DNA from: Roseicyclus persicicus
GTDB lineage: Bacteria > Pseudomonadota > Alphaproteobacteria > Rhodobacterales > Rhodobacteraceae
Direction of reading: 5' to 3'
Length of the DNA stretch: 64,000 nucleotides
Assembly: GCF_012395815.1 (NCBI RefSeq)
Contig: NZ_JAAZQQ010000002.1
Span: forward strand, 186,001-250,000
Below are positions 25,361 to 61,242 of this stretch, in pieces (position 1 is the stretch's first letter; each line of letters starts with the position of its first letter). A program made the translations under genes and the position numbers. The notes beneath the pieces are model-generated. The model worked only from the letters and a program-made list of their open reading frames with translations, was not told the DNA's origin and ran no database searches.

Positions 25361-25423
25361 CTTGCTGCAGCAAGTCGAAGGGGAAAACTGCAGTTTTCCG
25401 TGCCGCGAAACTGCAGTTTCGCG
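25361..25423. repeat. Array of three tandem perfect palindromes with CTGCAG cores, 23-bp period
   Basis: The dyads are 25361-25374 (half cttgctg), 25382-25399 (half ggaaaactg) and 25404-25423 (half cgcgaaactg). Each is perfectly self-complementary, each centres on CTGCAG, and the centres lie exactly 23 bp apart. The arms differ from one to the next. The array starts 5 bp after the AAA ATPase stop codon on the minus strand and ends 46 bp before the helicase start. As RNA it would form three hairpins in a row. A related array lies at 60314-60382. Confidence 0.9.
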
Positions 25424-25428
25424 CGCCT

Positions 25429-26751
25429 TCAGTGGATGATCTTCTCCTGCTTCACGAACAGGTTCTCCCAGGCGCGGTCGATGAATTCGGGGCGCATCTG
25501 GTAGGGGATGCCCTCGAATTCGCAGATCGCCTTGATCTGGTCGCACAGGAACACCGGGTGGTAGTTCGCGTAGATGTGGTCGATCGTGGGGTACTTGGTC
25601 TTAAGCAGGTGGATCAGCGACGCCTCGTCCAGCGGCACGCCCTTCTTCTTGGCGACCATGGCGAAGATCTTGAGGAACTGCTCCTGCGTCGGGCCGTCGA
25701 TCTTGACCTTGAAGAAGATCCGGCGCAGCGCCGCCTGGTCGAAGATGTCGTTGGGGTGGAAGTTGGTCGAGAACACCACCAGCGTGTCGAAGGGCACCTC
25801 GAACTTCTCGCCCGACTGCAGGGCGAGGATGTCGTAGCCCATCTCCATCGGAACGATCCAGCGGTTGATGAGCGCCTGCGGCGGCTCTTCCTGGCGGCCA
25901 AGGTCGTCGACGATGAACACGCCGCCGGTGGACTTCAGCTGGAGCGAGGCCTGGTAGGTACGGCTGACCGCGTTGTAGTTGAGGTCGAGCATCGACAGCG
26001 TCAGTTCGCCGCCCGTCATCACCGTGGGCCGGGTGCACAGGATGTAGCGGGTGTCGAAGCGCGCCGAGGCCTTGCGCAGCGGGCTGGTGCCGGTGGCGTC
26101 CTCGTCCTGCTTGACCGGACTGTGGACGATGGGGTCGAACAGCGTGATGACCTGCCCCGCGTAGGACAGCGCGTGGGGGACGAAGATGTTGTCGCCCATG
26201 GCCTTGCGGATGCCCTCGGCGATGGAGGACTTGCCGTTGCCGGGCGGGCCGTACATCAGCACCGACCGCCCCGAGCCCACGGCCGGGCCCAGCTGGTCGA
26301 TCAGGCCCTTGGGCAGGATCAGGTGGCCCATGGACCGTTCCAGCATGTCGCGGGTCAGCTTGATGTCGCGGATCGACTGGCGCTTGACCTGCGCCTTGTA
26401 GTCCTCGAGCGGCACCGGCATCGGCCCGTAGTATTCCGACTGCGACAGCGCATCGAGCGCGCGCGCCTTGCCGCCGTCGGTCAGCTGGAAGCCCATTTCC
26501 GAGCTGGAGGTGGCGTGCAGCGTGCCGGTGGCCTGCATCAGACCCATCTCGCGCAGGTTGTCGATCAGCTCCTGCGTCAGCGGGATCGGCAGGGCGACGG
26601 CCCGGGCGATCTCGGAGGTCTTTTCGACGTTCTTGCGGAAGACGGTCTTGAGCAGGATGTCGCGCATCATCACGGGCGTCAGCCCGGTGTCCGCGAGCCG
26701 GCGCAGCGGCGGGGGCGCCATGGGCTCGGGCTGCGTGACTTGCATGTTCAT
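25429..26751 (-). CDS. AAA (MoxR-like) ATPase at the end of the tad pilus locus
   Basis: The 440-residue protein has an N-terminal winged-helix-like region (about 15-110, LTPVMMRDILLKTVF, TSEIARAVALPIPLTQELIDNL, GFQLTDGGKARAL), Walker A YGPPGNGKSS at about 167-176, Walker B GGVFIDD-type segment (GGVFIVDDLGRQ), and the sensor region VVFSTNFHP. It resembles MoxR-type chaperone ATPases. Its role beside tad genes is unknown; it might remodel or regulate pilus assembly. No von Willebrand factor partner, usual for MoxR, is adjacent. The weak ribosome site leaves Met1 or Met3 as start. Confidence 0.8.
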   Translation of the reverse strand: MNMQVTQPEPMAPPPLRRLADTGLTPVMMRDILLKTVFRKNVEKTSEIARAVALPIPLTQELIDNLREMGLMQATGTLHATSSSEMGFQLTDGGKARALDALSQSEYYGPMPVPLEDYKAQVKRQSIRDIKLTRDMLERSMGHLILPKGLIDQLGPAVGSGRSVLMYGPPGNGKSSIAEGIRKAMGDNIFVPHALSYAGQVITLFDPIVHSPVKQDEDATGTSPLRKASARFDTRYILCTRPTVMTGGELTLSMLDLNYNAVSRTYQASLQLKSTGGVFIVDDLGRQEEPPQALINRWIVPMEMGYDILALQSGEKFEVPFDTLVVFSTNFHPNDIFDQAALRRIFFKVKIDGPTQEQFLKIFAMVAKKKGVPLDEASLIHLLKTKYPTIDHIYANYHPVFLCDQIKAICEFEGIPYQMRPEFIDRAWENLFVKQEKIIH

Positions 26752-26835
26752 GTGGTCAAACCCCTTGTCTCGACGCGCATGACCCTGCCGGGCGATTGCG
26801 GCGGATTCGGGGCGCGGCGGGGGAGGCGGCGGGGC

Positions 26836-27357
26836 TCAGAGCCCCGCGGACAGACCCAGCGCCAGGTAGATCGCCAGCGCGCCGGCCAGCGCCACGCCCA
26901 TCGGGAACAGCTTGCCCTGGTCCCAGGACGCCCAGTCGGCGGTGGCGCGCCGCAGCGCCGGCACCCGGCCCGCGGTGCGGTGCGTGACCCAGGACCCGAT
27001 CAGCACCAGCGCGAAGAGCATCAGGAAGAACAGCCCGTCGCCCGGCGCCACGAAGGGCGCCATCGCGGCCGCGAACTTGGCGTCGCCCGCGCCGACGAGG
27101 CCCAGCGACGAGATCACGAAGCCGATCACCAGCACGACGCCCAGCGCCGCGAGGCGCCACAGGTAGGTCTCGAAGGTCCAGGCCCCGACGCCCAGCACCA
27201 GCACGAGCCCGATCCCGAGGAACACGCCCGCCAGCGCCAGCACGGCCACGTTGGGGATGCGCATGGCGCGCAGGTCCGACAGCGCCACCCAGATGCAGAT
27301 CGGCAGCACGAAGGGCAGGAACCAGAGGGCTTCGGTCAGGGTCAGGGACAGCGTCAT
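26836..27357 (-). CDS. cpaA: Prepilin peptidase TadV/CpaA
   Basis: This integral membrane aspartic peptidase cleaves the leader of Flp prepilins. The 173-residue protein has about six membrane helices and both catalytic Asp residues: Asp28 in LSDLRAMRIPN and Asp92 in GAGDAKF. It has only the peptidase A24 domain, without the N-terminal methylase domain of PilD, as expected for TadV. Its ATG overlaps the TGA of the upstream tadD-like gene (ATGA). It is the last recognised pilus gene before the AAA ATPase. Confidence 0.92.
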   Translation of the reverse strand: MTLSLTLTEALWFLPFVLPICIWVALSDLRAMRIPNVAVLALAGVFLGIGLVLVLGVGAWTFETYLWRLAALGVVLVIGFVISSLGLVGAGDAKFAAAMAPFVAPGDGLFFLMLFALVLIGSWVTHRTAGRVPALRRATADWASWDQGKLFPMGVALAGALAIYLALGLSAGL

Positions 27358-59393: not shown

Positions 59394-60302
59394 ATGCATC
59401 TCGAGTTCCGCCACCTGAGGACGATCAAGGCGATCCACGAGGAGGGCGGGCTGGCGCGCGCGGCCGACCGGCTGCACATCACCCAGTCGGCGCTGAGCCA
59501 CCAGATCAAGGGGCTGGAGGACCAGGCGGGGCTGGAGCTGTTCGTGCGGCGGTCGAAGCCGATGCGCCTGTCGGCGGCGGGGCTGAAGCTGCTCAGGCTG
59601 GCCGAAGAGGTGCTGCCGCGCATCGACGCGCTGCAGGAAGAGTTCGACTCGCTGCGGAAGGGGAAATCGGGGCGGTTGCACATCGCCATCGAGTGCCACG
59701 CCTGTTTCGACTGGCTGCTGCCGGTGCTGGAGGCGTTCCGGGTCGCCTGGCCGGACGTGGACGTCGACATCCGCCCGGGCCTCCAGTTCGAGGCGCTGCC
59801 GGCGCTGATGCGCGAGGAGGTGGACCTGGTGGTGTCCTCCGACCCCGAGAAGCTGGCCGGCGTCGATTTCACGCCGCTGTTCGACTACGAGCCCGTGTTC
59901 GTCTGCGCCGCCGACCACCCGCTGGCCGCGAAACCCTGGATCGAGGCGCAGGATTTCGTCGACCAGGCGCTGATCACCTACCCGGTGGAACGGTCGCGGC
60001 TGGACGTGTTCAGCCAGCTCCTCTTCGCCGCCGGGGTGGAGCCGAAATCGATCCGGCAGGTGGAGCTGTCGGCGGTGATCCTGCTGCTTGTCGCCTCGGG
60101 GCGCGGGGTGGCGGTGCTGCCCGACTGGGTGGTGCGGGACAGCGCGCGGCACCCCTCGCTGGTGACGCGGCGCCTGACCGAGACCGGCATCACCCGCAGG
60201 CTCTACGGCGCGACGCGGGCCGAGGATACGGGCAAACCCTTCATGGCGCAGATGCTGAAGCTGTGCCGGACCGAGCCGCCCAAGCTGCAGCGCCGCGCCT
60301 GA
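59394..60302 (+). CDS. metR: LysR-family regulator MetR
   Basis: MetR activates methionine and folate genes, with homocysteine as co-effector in enterics. The 302-residue protein has an N-terminal winged HTH (GLARAADRLHITQSALSHQIKGLE) and a substrate-binding domain whose segments IAIECHACFDWLLPVLEAF, DLVVSSD, YPVERSRLDVF and ALLPDWVV-like VLPDWVV closely follow E. coli MetR as I remember it. The ATG at 59394 gives the family N-terminus. It diverges from metF, its likely target. Confidence 0.88.
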   Translation: MHLEFRHLRTIKAIHEEGGLARAADRLHITQSALSHQIKGLEDQAGLELFVRRSKPMRLSAAGLKLLRLAEEVLPRIDALQEEFDSLRKGKSGRLHIAIECHACFDWLLPVLEAFRVAWPDVDVDIRPGLQFEALPALMREEVDLVVSSDPEKLAGVDFTPLFDYEPVFVCAADHPLAAKPWIEAQDFVDQALITYPVERSRLDVFSQLLFAAGVEPKSIRQVELSAVILLLVASGRGVAVLPDWVVRDSARHPSLVTRRLTETGITRRLYGATRAEDTGKPFMAQMLKLCRTEPPKLQRRA

Positions 60303-60313
60303 CCCCGGCCCGC

Positions 60314-60382
60314 GCAACAGCCTTGCAAGGCTGTTGCCAGAGGCTTGCAAGCCTCTGGCCAATTCCTTGCAAGGAATTGGCC
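60314..60382. repeat. Array of three tandem perfect palindromes with CTTGCAAG cores, 22-bp period
   Basis: The dyads are 60314-60337 (half gcaacagccttg), 60336-60359 (half gccagaggcttg) and 60357-60382 (half ggccaattccttg). Each is perfectly self-complementary over 24-26 bp, they overlap by 2-3 bp, and their centres lie exactly 22 bp apart. The core is constant and the arms vary. The array starts 11 bp after the metR stop codon. As RNA it would fold into three adjacent hairpins with the same UUGCAA loop. Confidence 0.92.
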
Positions 60383-60447
60383 CCCTTGGCACGCCGGGGC
60401 GCGGGGTCTATAGGCTCGCCCCTGTCCCCGCACCCGAGGAAGTCCCG

Positions 60448-61242
60448 ATGCAAGGCTCTGCCAACCTCAACATCATGCTCAAGGCCGCCCGCAAGGCCGG
60501 GCGCAGCCTCGTCAAGGATTTCCGCGAGGTGGAGAACCTGCAGGTCTCGGCCAAGGGCCCCGGCGATTTCGTCAGCCGCGCCGACCGCGCCGCCGAGGAG
60601 ATCCTCAAGACCGAGCTGATGGAGGCGCGCCCCAACTACGGCTTCCTCGGCGAGGAAGGCACCGTGATCGAGGGCAAGGACCCGACCCGCCGCTGGATCG
60701 TCGACCCGCTCGACGGCACCACCAACTTCCTGCACGGGATGCCCCATTGGGCCGTGTCGATCGCGCTGGAGCACAAGGGCGAGATCGTCGCCGGCGTCGT
60801 CTACGACCCCGCCAAGGACGAGATGTTCTACGCCGAGAAGGGCGCCGGCTGCTGGCTCAACGACAGCCAGCGCCTGCGCGTCTCGGGCCGCACCCGCCTG
60901 ATCGAGAGCGTGTTCGCCACCGGCGTGCCCTATGGCGGCGGGAAATACCTGCCCGCCACGCTGCAGGACCTGGCCCGGCTGATGCCCACCTGCGCCGGCG
61001 TCCGGCGCTGGGGCTCGGCCGCGCTCGACCTCGCCTATGTGGCCGCGGGCCGCTACGAGGGCTACTGGGAACGCGGGCTGCACGCCTGGGACATCGCCGC
61101 CGGCATCCTGCTGGTGCGCGAGGCGGGGGGCTTCGTGCAGCCGATCCGCGAGGGGCAGGACATGCTGGTGGACGGCCATGTCGTCGCCGCCGCCGAGCCG
61201 ATCTTCGACCAGTTCGCCGCGATCATCCGCGACCGCGAGTGA
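60448..61242 (+). CDS. suhB: Inositol-monophosphatase family protein SuhB
   Basis: This magnesium-dependent phosphatase acts on inositol phosphates or similar substrates; E. coli SuhB also aids ribosomal RNA transcription. The 264-residue protein has the metal site FLGEEG (about 66-71), DPLDGTTNFLHG (about 86-97) and WDIAAGILLVREAGG. The ATG at 60448 follows gaggaag. It lies 65 bp after the palindrome array and converges on pcs with a 9-bp gap. Confidence 0.93.
   Translation: MQGSANLNIMLKAARKAGRSLVKDFREVENLQVSAKGPGDFVSRADRAAEEILKTELMEARPNYGFLGEEGTVIEGKDPTRRWIVDPLDGTTNFLHGMPHWAVSIALEHKGEIVAGVVYDPAKDEMFYAEKGAGCWLNDSQRLRVSGRTRLIESVFATGVPYGGGKYLPATLQDLARLMPTCAGVRRWGSAALDLAYVAAGRYEGYWERGLHAWDIAAGILLVREAGGFVQPIREGQDMLVDGHVVAAAEPIFDQFAAIIRDRE

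Follow-up and report, generated by a model that had tools for sequence, protein, structure and literature searches.

TTGCAA hairpin arrays at gene 3' ends in Roseicyclus represent a clade-specific, REP-like family

Background

How can three neighbouring palindromes share a core and an exact spacing and keep their arms fully complementary, while the arms themselves are unrelated in sequence from one palindrome to the next? This question is raised by a site behind a metR-like gene of Roseicyclus persicicus (assembly GCF_012395815.1, contig NZ_JAAZQQ010000002.1), in a stretch of 64,000 nucleotides that was analysed as a whole and is referred to below as the window. A first-pass annotation of the window offered three options for the site: a 3' RNA structure in which three hairpins have the same type of loop, an array of protein-binding sites two helical turns apart, and a mobile palindromic element. 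We report that the three palindromes are one copy of a genome-wide family. The TTGCAA arrays, which are real and not the outcome of chance, are strand-symmetric rows of hairpins at the 3' ends of genes. They form a clade-specific, REP-like family, and their function is one that we infer from sequence.

Results

The array behind the metR-like gene

The three dyads (Table 1) have the core CTTGCAAG in common and their centres are 22 bp apart, and the lengths (24, 24 and 26 bp), constant core and exact spacing given in the first-pass annotation are exact. Its statement that the arms are unrelated yet complementary also holds. The dyads are the sole perfect palindromes longer than 20 bp within the window; the next longest, of 20 and 18 bp, both belong to the CTGCAG triplet. 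The best match of the upstream gene is NCBIfam PRK15421 (MetR; E 1.3e-75, 255 bits, the curated cut-off of 382 not being reached), and the downstream gene matches PRK10757 (E 2.1e-65) with 220 bits, under its cut-off of 332. Situated between these co-oriented genes, the array begins 11 bp past the stop codon of the first, as had been noted, and ends 3 bp before a promoter-like site, TTGGCA-17-TATAGG. By eye this site is alike in five genomes with the metR gene order, R. persicicus included; it was not picked up by a consensus scan.

A terminator scan of positions 60250-60470 returned neither T-tracts nor terminator-like sites, which bears out the reported absence of a T-run, and the GC-rich hairpin with T-tract of an intrinsic terminator is not found at this array. 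The array folds into three hairpins on the plus strand (z -5.05, 0 of 200 shuffles as stable) and on the minus strand (z -4.13, 1 of 200). The window holds one chain of three hairpins with stems of length ≥6, and six Markov-shuffled versions had none. Rfam 15 gave seven matches up to E 5 at positions 60000-60700, none of which reaches its gathering score; the best, mir-3130, was rejected (23.7 bits versus a gathering score of 95).

Table 1. Features of the window referred to in the text (window coordinates)
Feature	Position	Strand	Sequence or detail	Remark
Dyad 1	60314..60337, 24 bp	.	GCAACAGCC-TTGCAA-GGCTGTTGC	perfect palindrome; hairpin folds on either strand
Dyad 2	60336..60359, 24 bp	.	GCCAGAGGC-TTGCAA-GCCTCTGGC	perfect palindrome; hairpin folds on either strand
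Dyad 3	60357..60382, 26 bp	.	GGCCAATTCC-TTGCAA-GGAATTGGCC	perfect palindrome; hairpin folds on either strand
Upstream gene, MetR-like LysR-type regulator	59394..60302	+	stop codon 60300-60302	gene call
Downstream gene, inositol-monophosphatase-like	60448..61242	+		gene call
Promoter-like site of the downstream gene	60386..60414	+	TTGGCA (60386-60391), 17 bp, TATAGG (60409-60414)	by eye
CTGCAG triplet, second family	25361..25423	.	dyads of 14, 18 and 20 bp; spacing 23 bp	

Size and anatomy of the family

Two cores separated by 13-16 bases were matched 75 times in the forward and 77 times in the reverse direction in the R. persicicus genome, compared with 0 and 0 matches for a control pattern read backwards, and three cores in a row occur 52 times. 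Triplets of this kind, whose frequency relative to a control had been proposed as the measure of the original claim, are thus commoner than the control. At least 27 arrays of three to five TTGCAA-centred dyads, with 104 units, are present in this genome; they were drawn from 50 of the 52 core triples, and one or two arrays may be missing. For the four congeneric carriers (R. persicicus, G003, G004 and G011) we collected 80 chains of three to five cores (306 units), found by the cores alone in stretches fetched around the arrays. Four units are present in 58 of the 80 chains, and the spacing between units is 22 in 141 steps, 23 in 75, 21 in 7, 24 in 2 and 20 in 1.

The constancy of the loop is partly a matter of design, the cores having been searched as TTGCAA; the variants TTGAAA, TTGGAA, TTTCAA and CTGCAG were met. 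The pair flanking TGCA is likewise T-A by search design, and it is C-G in one unit (CTGCAG) and throughout the CTGCAG family. We therefore read the loop as a TGCA tetraloop. Since TGCA is self-complementary, the hairpins resemble perfect palindromes.

Paired changes in the arms

An array set found through perfect stems is biased with respect to pairing, and the pairing count was repeated on the arrays found by cores alone. Of the 1836 cells that make up the six inner arm pairs (80 arrays, 306 units), 1828 are Watson-Crick. Among the 88 distinct units of the 104 in R. persicicus, both sides have changed in 249 cells, where shuffling gives 69 on average, and covariation scores 0.74 compared with 0.18 in shuffled data; none of 500 shuffles was as high in either case. 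Shifting the partner by one to three columns lowers the pairing in these units from 94% to 29-52%. Two of the five covariation measures showed no excess over the shuffles, namely pairs changed on both sides (219 of 500) and further pair types (413 of 500).

By flank comparison, 70 of 86 arrays fall into 23 orthologous groups (in this list L189 and L249 stand for two entries each, L227 gave no array, and L173, L175, L177, L238 and L239 are unused). The ortholog count was repeated in the same way; with array boundaries still taken from the perfect-stem search, 259 aligned pairs of orthologous units gave 114 cells changed on both sides and still Watson-Crick, 8 changed on one side and 1420 the same, leaving out two unit pairs with more than three changes (four and five) and with species pairs within a group not being independent. 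All eight one-sided changes are at the sixth pair. In our reading, the TTGCAA arrays diverged by paired changes. Isolated switches of a single pair (29) comprise 22 transitions and 7 transversions, and the latter, being transversions, cannot have passed through a G-U intermediate. Moreover, G-T pairs on the gene strand account for 2 of 582 cells in arrays between co-oriented genes; as a rough yardstick, PMC5381666 gives approximately 4% GU for Bacillus cereus terminators. This near lack of G-T pairs could reflect antisense transcription at these places, a function at the DNA level, or copying that renews both arms together.

Placement at the ends of genes

Genes were called with a home-made codon HMM trained on the window. 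According to these calls, the flanking genes are convergent for 45 of the 80 arrays, co-oriented for 25 and divergent for 2; a further 4 lack a call on one side, and 4 were called inside a gene and are not assigned either way. Both arrays called divergent are actually behind the 3' end of a gene overlooked by the finder. Convergent neighbours are found at 45/80 arrays versus 10 of the 66 adjacent gene pairs in the window.

The first-pass annotation had suggested a check on whether the dyads sit after stop codons, and they do: 98 of 119 gene 3' ends facing an array are at most 15 nt from it, with a median of 7 nt. At convergent arrays both ends are within this distance in 33 cases, one end in 7 and none in 5, and at co-oriented arrays a stop codon is within 15 nt in 21 of 25.

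History within the genus

The LysR gene is present at ≥90% identity in all 13 genomes of the genus searched. Core pairs were found in five of these (70, 36, 35, 35 and 2) and in none of the other eight, including G012. In the tree based on the LysR region the four carriers form one clade (support 1.000), and G012 joins next (support 0.967). Behind the LysR gene itself, a short array-free spacer leads to the same promoter-like site in G005, G009 and G012. The G001 genome carries three hairpins in a row there, with different stems and with GCAA, TCAG and TCCG as loops. The eight other congeners have a different sequence after the gene, and the stretch inspected in them showed no array. Absence from the same locus in close relatives with no further copies was to have counted against the initial claim; an array of this sequence is indeed absent after this gene in the 12 congeners inspected, but many other copies exist.

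At eight orthologous convergent sites the sister species G012 has no TTGCAA-family array. Six of these have no strong hairpin, and there the spacers are approximately 3-30 nt long (by eye); one has a single hairpin and one has two hairpins of other sequence. At one G012 locus between convergent genes (L290, orthologous to L256) about a dozen TGACGGC copies follow a single hairpin. For 16 of the 27 R. persicicus loci an array is present at the orthologous place in another carrier, which indicates that arrays persist across speciation. Given this sharing and the absence from the G012 sites, many arrays were most likely gained together within the four-carrier clade, and some later. Four pairs of R. 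persicicus loci have two or more adjacent arm pairs in common; 1000 shuffles gave 0.09 such locus pairs on average and never more than 3. The 15 cases in which one adjacent arm pair is shared are not extreme (shuffled mean 5.6, maximum 19).

Non-carrier congeners have tandem hairpins of other sequence at three of eight array sites. Pairs with a CCGG loop occur in G001 and G010, and G008 has a similar one. Rows of four are present in G002 and G006 (loops TGCA or TGCC, TGGA, TGGA or TAGA, and CCGG), G001 also has a row of three, and at the third place rows of four were seen in G001 and G008. A fixed detector, applied to 50 orthologous spacers from seven array-free congeners, saw no strong hairpin in 26, a single one in 13 and tandem hairpins in 11; three of the last, all at the place of L028, look different in kind.

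Distribution beyond the clade

Among 394 genomes of the family (393 genera, two genomes of the own genus being in the draw), TTGCAA triples were found in one, that of R. persicicus. Among the at least 101 stretches matched in a scan of genome contigs are at least three loci in Roseibacterium sp. SDUM158016 and at least five in Rhodobacteraceae bacterium UBA8790; the latter (L053, L060, L107, L132 and L143) are three-unit CTTGCAAG arrays with perfect arms of different composition. Many arrays with the core CCTTGCAAGG and a spacing of exactly 22 bp were observed in Bacteroidaceae Horse_feces99, of an unrelated phylum (L046, L048, L052 and others). Core and spacing are alike, and arm complementarity is lost beyond the third pair; at the fourth arm pair just 17 of 120 units (from 32 of 41 loci) are Watson-Crick, and these loci were rejected as relatives. 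In a genome of another genus (G017, L174, 13153-13199) two adjacent hairpins with GAC loops lie between convergent genes, whose stop codons are 13 and 11 nt off. The ranked results of searches in one open-access library showed no description of these arrays, and a search on the core sequence was discarded, being swamped by unrelated oligonucleotides.

A second family with other cores

The CTGCAG triplet of the window is followed, after 5 bp, by the end of a gene on the minus strand (25429-27357 as called). In the R. persicicus genome the CTGCAG-core pattern has 38 matches per strand versus 1 in the control, several of them chance-like and without a dyad. Nine CTGCAG arrays from this genome comprise five convergent and four co-oriented cases, and the centres met in this second family are CTGCAG, CTCGAG, CGCGCG and CCCGGG. 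We also observed GAAAA/TTTTC stems with the loops TGCA, TCGA and GCGC (window triplet and L031-L045). Loops of the second type are self-complementary in 37 of 47 units, a count in which TGCA is inflated by the CTGCAG-based search of the R. persicicus loci; among congener units not found by loop sequence the figure is 11 of 19. Of 248 family genomes, 5 have tandem pairs of the second type: 25 in R. persicicus, 3 in G263 and 1 in each of three others, the last being the same as in the control (1 in each of five genomes). Single hairpins number 56 in R. persicicus, 10 in G023 (control 1) and 0-7 in the other 59 genomes (control 0-6).

Discussion

Relation to known elements

REP and BIME elements, as described in PMC3733652, carry a GTAG or CGTC tag, and those between convergent genes lie no more than 20 bp from either gene's 3' end. 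The TTGCAA family resembles them as portrayed there in being composed of short palindromic repeats with many extragenic copies, clusters and clade-specific families. Palindromic repeats of 20-40 bp between genes are what the 52 core triples of R. persicicus represent, and the siting near 3' ends between convergent or co-oriented genes is the one found here. The tags are another matter: GTAG or CTAC occurs 3 times in the 27 array segments (104 units) of R. persicicus, and CGTC or GACG 20 times, counted anywhere regardless of position, which makes this a weak test. The REP-associated tyrosine transposase (Y1_Tnp, PF01797) was detected in 0 of 11 congeners, carriers and non-carriers together, by a search that found it in 5 of 14 known genomes used as control; CGTC REPs are said in PMC3733652 to have no dedicated transposase. 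Unlike REPs, the arms of the TTGCAA arrays vary almost freely around a fixed loop and rows of three to five are normal, and G-T stem pairs, which that text calls frequent in REPs, are nearly absent. We therefore regard the family as REP-like in placement and do not claim its membership in REP/BIME, since the GTAG tag pattern and the Y1 transposase are lacking in the material searched and the arms vary almost freely.

The bidirectional intrinsic terminators of PMC5381666 are similar in that one stem is common to two convergent genes and undergoes compensatory changes. They have a T-tract and a single stem, whereas the TTGCAA arrays have no T-tract, consist of several hairpins, start a few nt past the stop codon and form a dispersed repeat family. 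Strong hairpins near gene ends without a U-tract are also dealt with in PMC13289151, where they mark ends trimmed back after Rho-dependent termination and are thought to be protective; those are measured 3' ends in Escherichia coli, in contrast to a repeat family known from its sequence. Finally, REPs of E. coli that lie 15 nt or less from a stop codon are reported in PMC12306157 to stall ribosomes. The distance to the stop codon is the same and sequence and array form differ, and by analogy ribosome stalling is a possible further effect of the TTGCAA arrays.

A proposed two-way RNA structure at gene ends

Of the three options first offered for the site, the RNA structure appears best supported, by the covariation, the siting after stop codons and the presence, at some of these sites in congeners, of tandem hairpins with a different sequence. 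With moderate confidence, we read the arrays as probable REP/BIME-like, clade-specific bidirectional RNA 3'-end hairpin arrays, which may aid termination, insulate genes or block exonucleases. An array would be a cassette of three to five back-to-back hairpins with stems of approximately 8-11 bp and a UGCA loop in RNA, placed at a gene 3' end that is most often common to two convergent genes, and transcripts from both sides would fold into the same row. The row would define and protect the mRNA 3' end by blocking 3'-5' exonuclease trimming after factor-dependent termination, may help termination itself, and would insulate the neighbour; at the metR site the promoter-like site of the inositol-monophosphatase-like gene would be shielded from metR read-through.

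According to PMC4824070, an E. coli terminator a few bp past a gene is repressed and recovers with distance. Since the arrays start approximately 7 nt past the stop codon, the first hairpin would be masked by a ribosome that terminates there and the further copies would stay free, and in a shared spacer the hairpin distant from one gene would be close to the other. We favour arrays acting in RNA in both directions because the far hairpins would stay free and because hairpins without a U-tract have been described as ends that are stabilised once Rho has terminated transcription. A need for the RNAs of both strands to fold would account for the almost perfect Watson-Crick pairing of the arms and for the self-complementary loop. 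The family would have spread within one clade by copying. Effects on transcription, termination, stabilisation and ribosomes are what these arrangements would predict; the arrays, their covariation, placement, clade, gain relative to the sister species and partly common arm order are observed.

A role as stand-ins for T-tract terminators was considered and is weakened, as 26 of the 50 array-free spacers have no strong hairpin and the window keeps four T-tract terminators; given that G012 has no strong hairpin at six of the eight sites, arrays are not needed for termination at the sister's sites. The main objection to the RNA reading is that G-T pairs on the gene strand are so few (2/582) even in co-oriented places, and for this reason we keep a DNA-level function and selfish dispersal as alternatives.

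Alternative explanations

A more tentative proposal is that the arrays form a distinct class, a dispersing strand-symmetric gene-end element made of perfect hairpin rows with a fixed self-complementary loop, which would serve two convergent genes, would have spread in a burst without a REP-type transposase, and whose arms would change together, new stems arising with scarcely any mismatched forms in between, either by template switching or under very strong selection on both strands.

Unlikely, in our view, is that the arrays act as DNA, as clusters of perfect palindromes which would extrude cruciforms or be recognised by a protein that senses DNA structure, such as gyrase or a nucleoid protein, and which would deal with supercoils between convergent genes, as proposed for BIMEs. 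Such a role would fit the scarcity of G-T pairs in co-oriented places, the regular 22-23 bp spacing and the self-complementarity of the second-type loops (37/47, and 11/19 in congeners). However, co-oriented arrays are also directly past the stop codon (21/25 within 15 nt), and the arms have no sequence in common.

We give similarly low credence to the idea that the palindromic repeat is selfish and disperses without serving the host. Its dyads would be kept perfect by template switching between arms, and its copies would survive behind genes only, being harmful elsewhere. The gain within one clade, with absence from the sister at eight sites, the four locus pairs sharing at least two adjacent arm pairs, the scarcity of mismatched intermediates and the seven transversions among 29 switches are as expected from it. 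Against this, 16/27 loci have kept an array at the orthologous place in another carrier, sharing of one adjacent arm pair stays inside the shuffled range, a Y1 transposase was found in 0/11 genomes, and chance insertion and loss alone leave the median of 7 nt to stop codons unexplained. The mobile element of the first-pass annotation is thus supported as to gain in one clade and common arm order at some loci, but not as to a REP-type transposase.

Finally, the protein-binding option, in which a dimeric protein would recognise the core CTTGCAAG every two helical turns, is very improbable and we disfavour it: the constant core (itself a product of search design) and the 22-23 bp spacing suit it, but freely varying yet complementary arms are left unexplained and the second family, similarly placed, has other centres.

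Conclusions

Our data suggest that the TTGCAA arrays represent a two-way gene-end signal that has spread recently. With 80 arrays in four species, a sister species whose spacers are short and empty at several corresponding places, and paired changes between orthologs, two questions become testable: the role of REP-like palindromes at gene ends, and one-step compensatory changes in bacterial stems. As compact two-way insulators of natural diversity, such arrays would also be useful parts for gene circuits.
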